From contig JACAEQ010000144.1 in assembly GCA_013388755.1 (NCBI GenBank), forward strand, positions 1 through 41,881: a stretch of 41,881 bases of DNA. Reading direction: 5' to 3'. Positions 7,636 through 37,848 of this stretch are shown piece by piece. Positions within the stretch are counted from its first letter, which is position 1, and the number at the start of each line of letters is the position of its first letter. The position numbers and the translations under genes are program-made. The stretch comes from Chloroflexota bacterium (GTDB lineage: Bacteria > Chloroflexota > Chloroflexia > Chloroflexales > Roseiflexaceae). The notes below the pieces were generated by a model. The model did not search any database. It saw only the letters and a list, made by a program, of their open reading frames with translations, and was not told the DNA's origin.

Positions 7636-7671
7636 CAGCGACGCCGCGGCCATGCTGTTCCGCGGCGTCGG
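7636..7671 (-). terminator. Hairpin 3' of TPR-TM gene
   Basis: The inverted arms GCGACGCCGCGG and CCGCGGCGTCG are separated by about 10 bases (CCATGCTGTT). The 11-12 bp GC stem sits roughly 65 bases beyond the minus-strand stop at 7735. No long T tract follows on either strand, so it is terminator-like only. Confidence 0.45.
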
Positions 7672-7734
7672 CATTCGTGGTCCGGCTGTCTATGTGTGTT
7701 TCACTGCTGGCCTTCAAGGCGCGTGAGGCGCCGC

Positions 7735-8682
7735 TCAGACCACCAGCATCCGGCCAACTATCAGCAAAACAACAAAGAGGAGCAGGCTGAGCGCGCTGAT
7801 ACATACCAGTGCGCCGACAATCTGAGAGCGATAGATCGCGCCATGCTGTCGCTCCGGCGTTCGCAGCGTCTCGACACGGTCGTGTAACGGCATGGACGAC
7901 GTCGCAATGTGTGGCCGGCCAGACGGGCGTGGCTGAACCAGTTCGTTGACCAGGCTACTGCGATCGGGCACAGGGTCGCTGGCCGTCCTCCCGATCAGCG
8001 CGCGCATCGTTTCATCAACGACAGCGCTGTCAGGGTTCGGAGCCGCAGCGCCATCCTCGGTAAAGGTCACCGGTCGCAGGATCAATGGCGCCGCCACCGG
8101 AGCGCTGCGACGTCTGCTCGCAACCGGCTCCCTGCCCACAGTCGTTCGTGACGGCGCGGCTGGCTCAGGTGAATGCTCCGCGCTCTGCTGAAGCATCTCT
8201 TCGACGTGTTTCATGTTGAAAGGCACAGGCTCCGTTGAGGTATACGATGAGTGCCGGGCAACGCCGCCATTGGAACCGGCAGGCGTCGAGACGATATACC
8301 ATGGCGCATGACTATCGCCAACGGCTCGTTCTTGCTCCGCTGCAGGTTGTGCGCCATCCTGGTGCGGCATATGCTGAACAACAGGCACCGGCGCCGGTTG
8401 TTGTACCGGCACCGCACTCCCGCCGCGTATCTCTCGCAGCGCCGCACGTGTGCGGAGATTATGCGGATTGATGGACAATGCTCGCTCCAGGCAATAACGA
8501 CGCCGTTCTGCCGACGTGACGACGCGTGCCAACCCGAGCCAGGCGTGCTCGTTGTTGGGATTATGCTCGATAGCCCGCACGATCAAACGCACGGCTCGCC
8601 CCCGATCACCCGCGAACAGAGCATCGAGCCCTTGCTGGATGAGTAATGCCGGCTCTGGATCACTGGAGCTCGACGTAGTCAT
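7735..8682 (-). CDS. TPR-repeat protein with long disordered linker and C-terminal membrane anchor
   Basis: 315 aa. Residues about 10-85 form two or three TPR-like helical hairpins (ALLIQQGLDALFAGDRGRA, NNEHAWLGLARVV, RYCLERALSINPHNL). Then come about 190 residues rich in Pro, Ala, Ser and charged residues with no domain I recognise. The last 25 residues are one strong transmembrane helix (IVGALVCISALSLLLFVVLL). It is therefore a tail-anchored, N-in protein with a TPR face in the cytoplasm, probably a scaffold. I chose the ATG at 8682 because GGAG lies nine bases upstream, and upstream in-frame ATGs have no such site. It is divergent from the lipoprotein gene. Confidence 0.75.
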   Translation of the reverse strand: MTTSSSSDPEPALLIQQGLDALFAGDRGRAVRLIVRAIEHNPNNEHAWLGLARVVTSAERRRYCLERALSINPHNLRTRAALREIRGGSAVPVQQPAPVPVVQHMPHQDGAQPAAEQERAVGDSHAPWYIVSTPAGSNGGVARHSSYTSTEPVPFNMKHVEEMLQQSAEHSPEPAAPSRTTVGREPVASRRRSAPVAAPLILRPVTFTEDGAAAPNPDSAVVDETMRALIGRTASDPVPDRSSLVNELVQPRPSGRPHIATSSMPLHDRVETLRTPERQHGAIYRSQIVGALVCISALSLLLFVVLLIVGRMLVV

Positions 8683-34855: not shown

Positions 34856-35041
34856 ATGGCTGAGAAGAAGTCAAAGACCGACGTTACTGCGCGCGACAAG
34901 AGCGGCAAGGCAACAGAGCACAATTGCGTCAACTGTGGCGAGCGCATTCTCAATGACCGCGAGCTCGTTGTGGTCATGGATGGGCGCCGGCGAAACAAGA
35001 CGTATCACCACCGGGCCTGTTTTCAGAAGGCGATCGCGTAA
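34856..35041 (+). CDS. Small zinc-ribbon/LIM-like protein, 61 aa
   Basis: 61 aa. Lys-rich N-terminus (MAEKKSKTDVTARDKSGK), then CVNCGERILNDRE and, 30 residues later, YHHRACFQKAI. The CxxC with an HHxxC second half is a plausible single zinc site. No longer domain can be assigned. Its own promoter and a G-rich ribosome site (GGGGG about 10 bases before the ATG) support a real gene. It is followed 15 bases later by the aspartic protease gene and may be co-transcribed. It could bind nucleic acid or be a protein-protein adaptor. Confidence 0.7.
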   Translation: MAEKKSKTDVTARDKSGKATEHNCVNCGERILNDRELVVVMDGRRRNKTYHHRACFQKAIA

Positions 35042-35056
35042 ACGTATCGCCATACG

Positions 35057-36013
35057 ATGGTGCTGTTTCATCGGCTCATCCGCGCCGCGGGTGGGCCGAT
35101 GTGCTATACCAGCATGTCTGCAGCTATGGTTGAGGATCGAACAGCGCTGGAGTTTCCCTCTCAGGGTGCGGCGACGGTCGCGCTCTGCGAGCCATATGGC
35201 ATCCTCTGTTGCCTGGCGTCGGGGCCAGGCGGCTACCCATTGCGCGTCATGATCGATACCGGCACCGATCCTGCAGCGATCGACGCGCGCCTGGCACGTC
35301 GCCTTGCGTTGCCCACCGGCGGCAGCGGCGTCGGGCAAGGCGCCGCCAGCGACTCGGTTGCATTTACTGAAACCACCCTCCCCTGGTTGCGGCTCGGCGA
35401 CCCGCATGTTTCGGGTGGACAGCTCTTGACGATCCGGGATCTGTATGCGCCGGCGCTCGATCTCAGTTCGTTACCGTTCGCAGTTGATGTGGTGCTCGGC
35501 TACAGCGTGCTTCGCCAGGTTGCGTTACGCGTCGATTTTCAGCGCCGGTTGTTGACCCTGACCCATCCCGACATTGGCCCACAGGCGCCAGGCAGGGGTG
35601 GTGCACGAATGCCGCTCTCCTTTTTTGAACACTTTCCAGCGCTGAATAATCTTGAGGTCGATGGCGTCGTCATTGCGCAGGCGACGATTGATACCGGATC
35701 CAATGCCACTATCACGGTTGGGCCCGGGCTTGCGGCGCGCCTCGGGTTGCAACCGGGCAACACGGGCGTCAGCCTGGCGCAAGGCACGGGGTTCGGCGGC
35801 GGCGGCGACGTTATTCGTCGCCGGTTCCATCAGGCGCGACTCGGCCCGTTTGTGCTGGAGGATGTGGAACTGGATACGCACCTGGCCTGGGCGGGCGACC
35901 TTGGCCGAGCGGAGCGGGCCAATATTGGAACACGGCTGCTGTCACGTTTTGCCGTGGTGGCAATTGATTACGAGCGCCGAGAGGCTGTGTTCGATCCCCT
36001 GGATGCGCCCTGA
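35057..36013 (+). CDS. Aspartic protease-like protein with two DTG motifs in one chain
   Basis: 318 aa as given. Two retropepsin-like halves: VMIDTGTDPA with Asp67 and, after a DVVLGYSVLRQ flap-and-loop element, IDTGSNATIT with Asp212, then IGTRLLSRFAVV. Each half has the pattern of aspartyl_protease_2-type domains (DTG, then a hydrophobic-Gly segment). One chain would therefore supply both lobes of an active site, as in pepsin, instead of forming a homodimer. No signal peptide is obvious. The true start may be the ATG at 35099, which has GGGTGGG upstream. The target is unknown. Confidence 0.78.
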   Translation: MVLFHRLIRAAGGPMCYTSMSAAMVEDRTALEFPSQGAATVALCEPYGILCCLASGPGGYPLRVMIDTGTDPAAIDARLARRLALPTGGSGVGQGAASDSVAFTETTLPWLRLGDPHVSGGQLLTIRDLYAPALDLSSLPFAVDVVLGYSVLRQVALRVDFQRRLLTLTHPDIGPQAPGRGGARMPLSFFEHFPALNNLEVDGVVIAQATIDTGSNATITVGPGLAARLGLQPGNTGVSLAQGTGFGGGGDVIRRRFHQARLGPFVLEDVELDTHLAWAGDLGRAERANIGTRLLSRFAVVAIDYERREAVFDPLDAP

Positions 36014-36029
36014 ACGAGACACAACAGAC

Positions 36030-36056
36030 AGGCGCGCCACCAGGTGTGACGCGCCT
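36030..36056 (-). terminator. Hairpin between protease and mini-protein genes
   Basis: AGGCGCG (36030-36036) pairs with CGCGCCT (36050-36056), with an inner CAC/GTG. On the minus strand it is followed by a T-rich run (TGTCTGTTGTGTCTC), and it lies 31 bases past the mini-protein stop, so it would suit that gene. It is also 17 bases past the protease stop. Confidence 0.5.
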
Positions 36057-36086: not shown

Positions 36087-36179
36087 CTATGCGCAGTGCG
36101 GGCATTCCTCGTCAGCGAACGGCCCATGATCGGGGCAGTCGCCACCGGGGGCATCCTCAGGCAGATTATCGTAATCCAC
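36087..36179 (-). CDS. 30-aa Cys-rich mini-protein (putative zinc knuckle)
   Basis: A short frame on the minus strand from GTG at 36179 to TAG at 36089-36087. AAGGAG stands eight bases before the GTG and a hairpin follows. Residues 1-13 are an acidic leader (MDYDNLPEDAPGG). Residues 14-30 are DCPDHGPFADEECPHCA. The spacing Cys15-x2-His18 and Cys26-x2-Cys29 would bind one metal ion. Ribosome site, strict reading frame and motif spacing together make chance unlikely, but no homologue can be confirmed here. No strong promoter is visible upstream. Convergent with the protease gene. Confidence 0.55.
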   Translation of the reverse strand: MDYDNLPEDAPGGDCPDHGPFADEECPHCA

Positions 36180-36360
36180 GGCAGCAGCTCCTTCCACGTG
36201 TCGTGTCATGTGGAACGATAGCGACTGGCCGTATGTACTACCAATATGTGTAGATTACAGACGACTGACATGCGAGCCGGCACGCGCCGGGCGGCACATA
36301 CCACCGGTCAATGACCTGTACCCGGCGATGTAATGTTCAACGCTGCCGTTCTGGCGATGG

Positions 36361-37695
36361 TCACCCCTGTGCAGCAGCAATTGCCAGGCCAGACGCGACA
36401 CCGGTAAACACATCCATCTCCTGCAAGCGTTCCGCCCCGAATCTGGCTGCCAGCATGCGCACAAAACAAGGAATACGGGATGAACCGCCGGTACGTAGCA
36501 CCACATCAATCTCATCGTGGGACAGCCCGGCGGCGGCCAGCGCGCGATCGACGCAGGCGCCAACGGCACGTACATCAGGGCCGATCAGGCGTTCGAAATC
36601 CCAGCGTTCCAGGACTTCCTCAAATTGAATACCCGGCACATGCATCGCAATCGTGGCGCTACGATCGTTGCTCAGCCGCACCTTGGCGCGTTCAACCGTC
36701 TCATACAGGGGCAGACCATAGTTCTCGCGTACCAGGGTGCGCAGCGCGCGCAGCTCCTTTGGGCGGTTGCCGGTACGGATAGCTTCATCAATGATGTCAA
36801 GATACCGCGGTTGCGTCAGATCAACGATGCTCTGCCATTCAGACAGATGATCAAGCAAGATAGCCGGCAGTGGGAGACGGCGCGGGCCGAGAGTCGCGCC
36901 TTCGCCAAAGTGCGGCAGTAGTTTGCCCATGACAATACGGCGATCCATGAGATCGCCGCCGATAGGGACACCGTCGGTCGCAAGAACAGTGGTGACGCCA
37001 CGATCGGTCACGGCCATCACCGTGACGTCAAGGGTACCGCCGCCGAAGTCAAACACCAGGACCCGTTGTTCGCGCTGCACGGTTGAGGCGTAGGCAAAGG
37101 CTGCCGCTGTCGGCTCAGGGAGAAACTCGAATGGCGGCAACTCGGCAATCTCACAGGCACGCCGCATGCGTTCGATGGCCAGCGCGTCGGCAGCGGGATC
37201 GAGCGCATAGTGTACCGGGCGCCCGATCACCAGGCCGGTCACCCTCTGGCCAAGTTCCGCCTCGACTCGTTGCAGCACGATGCGCAGAATCACGGCAATC
37301 AGTTGCTCGAGCGTGTAGCGCGTGCCAAAAACATCAGTGCTGCTGAAGCCGCCATCGCGCAAATGACTCTTGAGCGACTGAAACAAGCGACCAGGCGTAT
37401 TGCTGTCAACATGGGCATAGAGCGCCTGGATGACGGTACCGAATTCGGCCAGCGTTACTTCCGTTTCGCCGATGTAACGCCACATGTATTCAATTTCTCG
37501 CCCGACGTTGCCCTCGGTGAAGCGATCAATCGCTTCACGCCCAACAAAGGGCGCGCCATCGCGACTGATGAACAGAGCAGAACGCATGATAGCCGGCTCA
37601 GGTCCGCGCGGATCAATGTTCAGCAGCCGTACGCACCGCCCGTCAAAGACTGCAGCGCTTGAATTGGTCGTACCAAAGTCCAGGCCGATCCGCAT
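36361..37695 (-). CDS. Short Hsp70-family (DnaK/YegD-like) ATPase
   Basis: 444 aa. Actin-like ATPase: phosphate-1 motif GLDFGTTNSSAAVF at the start, connect-1 and phosphate-2 VFDFGGGTLDVTVM near residue 220, adenosine motif VVLRTGGSSRIP near residue 400. There is no long substrate-binding C-terminal domain, unlike DnaK (about 640 aa), so it resembles YegD-type short Hsp70s. The role of such proteins is unclear. The ATG at 37695 has AAAGGG upstream at seven bases. It is divergent from pyrE. Confidence 0.9.
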   Translation of the reverse strand: MRIGLDFGTTNSSAAVFDGRCVRLLNIDPRGPEPAIMRSALFISRDGAPFVGREAIDRFTEGNVGREIEYMWRYIGETEVTLAEFGTVIQALYAHVDSNTPGRLFQSLKSHLRDGGFSSTDVFGTRYTLEQLIAVILRIVLQRVEAELGQRVTGLVIGRPVHYALDPAADALAIERMRRACEIAELPPFEFLPEPTAAAFAYASTVQREQRVLVFDFGGGTLDVTVMAVTDRGVTTVLATDGVPIGGDLMDRRIVMGKLLPHFGEGATLGPRRLPLPAILLDHLSEWQSIVDLTQPRYLDIIDEAIRTGNRPKELRALRTLVRENYGLPLYETVERAKVRLSNDRSATIAMHVPGIQFEEVLERWDFERLIGPDVRAVGACVDRALAAAGLSHDEIDVVLRTGGSSRIPCFVRMLAARFGAERLQEMDVFTGVASGLAIAAAQG

Positions 37696-37848
37696 TGCAA
37701 TGCCCTTTCGAGACGACACGAAACTGGCCGGTGCATGCACGCACCGGCCCGATTGCAGCCTATCGGGCCATGATACCCAAGAACGATGGCCGGCGCAATC
37801 CGCCTTGCGAAGGATTGCGAGTCTATCACTGCTCTCTGCAGCATGGTA

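Follow-up and report, generated by a model that had tools for sequence, protein, structure and literature searches.

Two described sets of systems lie close to the gene considered here. Haloferax volcanii encodes C(P)XCG micro-proteins (such as HVO_2753 and HVO_0758) that are tiny and stand-alone, with CPxC-type sites, and some of these are metal-free (PMC11241148). In T4 I-TevI, I-TevII, I-TevIII and segB, and in Aeh1 mobE, the Shine-Dalgarno (SD) sequence is masked only in transcripts started upstream, and in this block of translation the gene's own promoter is sited so that its own mRNA excludes the 5' arm (PMC2988022). Genes as short as 30 codons are easy to overlook, and one such microgene lies in the Roseiflexaceae contig analysed here (the window, 41,881 nt in all). 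Its product is like the H. volcanii zinc-finger micro-proteins in being a very small stand-alone protein with a CPxC-type site, but it differs in combining CxxH with CxxC in an acidic chain of 30 residues, and in occurring in bacteria and phage-like elements. C(P)XCG proteins are defined as having fewer than 70 aa and two C(P)XCG motifs, whereas the microprotein has a single CPxC beside a single CPxH and does not keep the final G in all members. Additionally, neither PF07754 nor any other model matched it above the Pfam cut-off, nothing in NCBIfam did so, PHROGs gave no match for two phage-like relatives, and searches of plasmid and named phage collections returned no credible match. The family is real, and it was absent from every library searched.

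The earlier note had proposed a GTG start with an SD sequence, 30 codons, a stop and a hairpin, all of which can be read directly from the sequence. On the minus strand, GTG lies at 36179, 30 codons run to GCA, and TAG occupies 36089-36087. The product, (M)DYDNLPEDAPGGDCPDHGPFADEECPHCA, has nine acidic residues and no K or R, and its putative metal ligands are spaced C15-x2-H18-x7-C26-x2-C29. Past the stop, the hairpin at 36056-36030 has 11 pairs, is GC-rich and ends in a weak T tail (fold z = -3.25 on the minus strand). An alternative in-frame ATG at 36209, which would give 40 aa, was rejected because the ATG of close homologues aligns with the GTG and the upstream frame is not conserved. The ATG of this 40-aa frame falls at the same place as the predicted transcription start (+1), and a longer, leaderless form of the microprotein starting from it is conceivable in the window. 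The features of the locus are as follows.

34856..35041, plus strand: Zn61, a 61-aa Cys-rich protein at the outer border of the microgene-protease unit (homologue comparison)
35057..36013, plus strand: retropepsin-type aspartic protease with two DTG motifs (PF13650/PF13975), convergent with the microgene (ORF and Pfam)
36030..36056, minus strand: terminator-like hairpin between the convergent genes (fold and hairpin scans)
36087..36179, minus strand: microprotein gene, 30 codons, GTG start and TAG stop; homologues keep start, length and Cys/His
36188..36193, minus strand: SD sequence AAGGAG, read directly, 8 nt from the GTG; homologues have GGAGG or AGGAG at the same position
36208..36220, minus strand: SD-complementary segment, comprising the putative -10 element and discriminator, just upstream of the predicted +1; other genera are alike
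36215..36244, minus strand: promoter-like TTGGTA-N18-TATCGT (-35 at 36244-36239, -10 at 36220-36215); spacing shared by type I genes of five genera
36361..37740, minus strand: Hsp70-like gene upstream on the same strand as the microgene, a possible source of read-through (domain searches)

Conserved Cys and His with silent third-position changes had been named beforehand as the support to look for in related genomes, and both the homologues and the codon pattern bear this out. In a sample of 60 related genomes, the microgene proved to be conserved, with full-length homologues (E from 3.5e-14 to 2.5e-11) in Roseiflexus (genus g4) and G005; the homologues in G001, G006 and G010 are more distant. 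Type I homologues, which are of similar length, occur in ten genomes of a single family and five genera including Roseiflexus; the named matches are to Roseiflexus, Kouleothrix and uncultured Chloroflexi. Close homologues have ATG in place of GTG, and most end no more than two residues past the second CxxC, with an acidic tail on the G006 copy. Pairs of type I copies give pN/pS values of 0.00-0.22 (0.11-0.22 for the window against other genera), and the differences between the window and G019 number 2 at first, 1 at second and 10 at third codon positions. For each of 6 pairs, an equal number of random substitutions was simulated, and 0 of 3000 runs altered so few residues. Given these simulations and the homologue E-values, the conservation is more than chance. 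D14, C15, P16, H18, G19, P20 and C26 are invariant across 12 aligned members. The sequence comparisons show the 30-codon gene to be functional, to encode a strongly acidic protein and to be held by purifying selection. Profile searches across the order (82 genomes), class (158) and phylum (400) found no convincing chromosomal member beyond the family; weak matches in G125, G243 and C547 of G005 were rejected, as these genes are not of the microgene type.

The leader is also conserved. Across five genera, a GTmATsT block, TTGGTAGTA and TAnnnT stand at fixed spacing, followed by six bases and then, in 8 of the 10 genes, by A; the core is TTGGTAGTA-N15-TAnnnT. In the window, this promoter-like block reaches further upstream, to GTAATCT, is below detection in a simple sigma-70 scan, and places the predicted +1 at about 36209-36208. 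A regulon was considered and rejected, since other genomic matches to the block were about as rare as those to a reversed control. The SD region pairs with the last part of the -10 element together with the six bases that follow it. Against composition shuffles, pairing of the 12-mer upstream of +1 with the leader gave p = 0.0125 in the window, 0.0045 in G005 and 0.0025 in G001; 0 of 2000 shuffles equalled it in G006 and G019, and p was 0.06-0.22 in the other Roseiflexus. For pairing to the SD window alone, Fisher p was 1.2e-4 over eight leaders that are not fully independent. Pairing in the window is unexceptional taken singly (36% of 47 control genes match its energy), and therefore the claim of an SD complement rests on its position across genera: each of the ten type I genes has its best complement of the SD region, or the second-best that does not overlap it, ending at -4 to +2 of the predicted +1. 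MAFFT alignments of the leaders place the SD arms in different registers. When the upstream segment is left out, predicted exposure of the SD rises from 0.26 to 0.69 in the window, and it rises also in Roseiflexus and G005; it drops in G001 (0.30 to 0.09) and in type II G010 (0.12 to 0.07). The type II genes G001b and G010 share the leader layout, and that of G006 C13 does not pair with its own SD.

These features suggest that the microgene may be transcribed from its own promoter, starting just past the SD-complementary segment. Read-through mRNA from the upstream gene would include this segment, hiding the ribosome-binding site, and mRNA from the microgene's own promoter would not, leaving the site free. 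With the SD hidden in read-through mRNA only, protein output is proposed to follow the microgene's own promoter alone. A different explanation, in which the hairpin belongs to the microgene's own mRNA, started further upstream, and regulates translation in cis, for instance as an RNA thermometer, seems rather unlikely. It would agree with arms that vary in sequence while their pairing is kept (with the entire SD included in Roseiflexus), and with an Hsp70-like neighbour in four genera of largely thermophilic bacteria. However, promoter-like elements at fixed spacing overlap the 5' arm, the predicted +1 is so often A, this Hsp70 is absent from Roseiflexus, and an Rfam search of the region matched no RNA family.

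The neighbourhood bears on what the product might do. The convergent gene has a pair of DTG motifs, and Pfam recognises two aspartyl-protease stretches in it, in agreement with the earlier description of a two-lobed aspartic protease gene lying tail-to-tail with the microgene; the actual start of the protease is probably later than that of the annotated frame. In the window, G005, G001 and G006, the gene before the microgene is Hsp70-like. In the first three, the order is Hsp70-like gene, microgene, then protease and Zn61 in the opposite direction, and in G006 the protease is on a separate contig. In Roseiflexus, a polysaccharide-flippase gene precedes the microgene, and the protease adjoins it or lies 2.6 kb off (G003 and G012). 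Hsp70 directly adjoins Zn61 in G007 and G011, and a different gene stands between them in G004. Zn61 itself is conserved, and is present even where microgene and protease are not. Protease homologues occur in precisely those ten genomes that have a type I microgene, out of 26 family genomes of which some are incomplete, and at the Hsp70-Zn61 junction microgene and protease are jointly present or jointly absent. Judged from these gene contents, the association is therefore more than incidental, and shared ancestry and incomplete genomes partly explain it. A role of the microprotein in regulating the convergent protease, or as its cofactor, is unlikely, even though the pair shares the same genomes also when unlinked, as in G006, or when 2.6 kb apart, and comes and goes together at the Hsp70-Zn61 junction. 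The genes are convergent and therefore not co-transcribed, no protease was recognised beside the phage-like relatives (whose neighbours are partly annotated), and ancestry accounts for part of the co-occurrence.

The four ligands C15, H18, C26 and C29 are retained in 8 of 10 type I genomes, H28 is not conserved, and the four plausibly form one CxxH...CxxC zinc-knuckle site. Two Roseiflexus copies are short of ligands: G009 has TGA at the C26 codon, and C29 is missing in G015. The TGA in G009 (L007, 1501-1581) truncates the protein so that just the first half of the site is left. AlphaFold2 modelled the microprotein with low confidence, at a mean pLDDT of 59.8, and its model is uninformative as to a metal site. 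The heptapeptide DCPEHGP, common to several members, also occurs in the PRDM4 zinc knuckle (PF18445, PDB 2L9Z); kinship was rejected, and the likeness, to a eukaryotic protein domain over eight residues only (E = 0.53), was taken as coincidence. The Cys core recurs in type II relatives, of which G001 has a tandem pair; others are in G006 and G010. In G006, two members (L010, and L095 at 8420-8548) have long acidic tail ends containing aromatic residues (DDDDYDYDDDWD and DDDDDYDDDW).

All six Roseiflexus (g4) genomes also encode a Cys-less 30-residue paralogue, MDYDDLPEDAPGGDDENTGPYADEYGGEMF or near, in a conserved gene neighbourhood (L028, L029, L030, L055, L057 and L058). Comparison of three copies gave a pN/pS of about 0.05, indicating purifying selection; therefore, the N-terminal half is selected even without the metal site, which argues that this half acts on its own. 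A 206-aa Cys-rich protein of G005 C74 (L047, reverse strand, 7646-8266), with no relative found in the order, has a C-terminal LDYDDLPEAPGEDDPDNGPHAVAA that resembles the paralogue. Additionally, contig scans found relatives of 29-30 residues in the viral contigs L129, L130, L153, L160 and L136. Integrase genes are near the relative in L130, L136, L153 and L160, and some of the five carry an excisionase-like HTH gene, a replication initiator, or DnaC-like or IstB-like loaders. The start of the relative overlaps the end of the preceding gene in L129 and L130. A recombination gene precedes the relative in L132, which has exonuclease and Sak4-like genes, and in L137, which shares the Sak4-like gene; in L131 the relative forms the end of a longer reading frame. 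Over the last 20 codons, the phage-like relatives differ by 4-8 silent against 0-1 replacement changes. Among 400 Chloroflexota genomes, with few candidates scored per genome, the L130 integrase has all of its best chromosomal relatives in the order of the window, and a host within this order is a guess.

The product would be a docking peptide, in which the acidic N-terminal half binds a partner protein and the zinc knuckle forms the folded part. In Roseiflexaceae, this partner may be connected with the convergent aspartic protease; for the phage-like relatives, the connection may be with proteins of replication or recombination. The combination of transcription from its own promoter, SD masking in read-through mRNA, and an acidic zinc-knuckle docking peptide whose partner is possibly protease- or replication-linked is somewhat probable. 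A further step, that a phage-related docking peptide of this kind became a resident, promoter-insulated bacterial gene with a metal-free twin for one partner, is doubtful; if true, a single partner would have metal-dependent and metal-free ligands. Conversion of the peptide into a modified peptide product is very improbable: GG at 12-13 does precede the Cys-rich core, and in G003 a gene for a radical SAM and helix-hairpin-helix protein, of which G019 has a homologue, lies directly downstream of the Cys-less paralogue, but no modifying enzyme was found among the scanned neighbours of type I genes, GG does not persist in other members, and the radical SAM protein, absent beside some copies, has a helix-hairpin-helix domain that points to DNA. 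A conserved RNA or chance ORF can be dismissed as next to impossible, since, however structured the leader and terminator, third positions hold most of the differences and pN/pS is far below 1, a codon pattern on which RNA-only conservation was rejected.

Prokaryotic toxin-antitoxin genes resemble the microgene in small size. However, it is without a conserved co-directional partner or a family match, and its upstream neighbour varies between genera (Hsp70-like or flippase), so the earlier suggestion of a toxin-antitoxin role is not supported; the earlier interpretation holds for a real, conserved coding microgene with Cys/His. What stands out is a microgene whose coding is proven by comparison, in a family that spans bacteria and phage-like elements, with a Cys-less twin; this pair offers a direct way to ask which of the two, metal site or acidic arm, is responsible for the function. 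In its leader, the microgene is like the T4-type block, in that a segment upstream of the predicted start pairs with the SD across genera, modestly so in the window. Unlike the T4-type systems, it is a chromosomal gene of Roseiflexaceae, its start is predicted from conserved promoter elements, and it has no phage late promoter. If the leader works as predicted, its layout could be used to find further insulated genes, and the translation block known from T4 would insulate ordinary chromosomal microgenes too.
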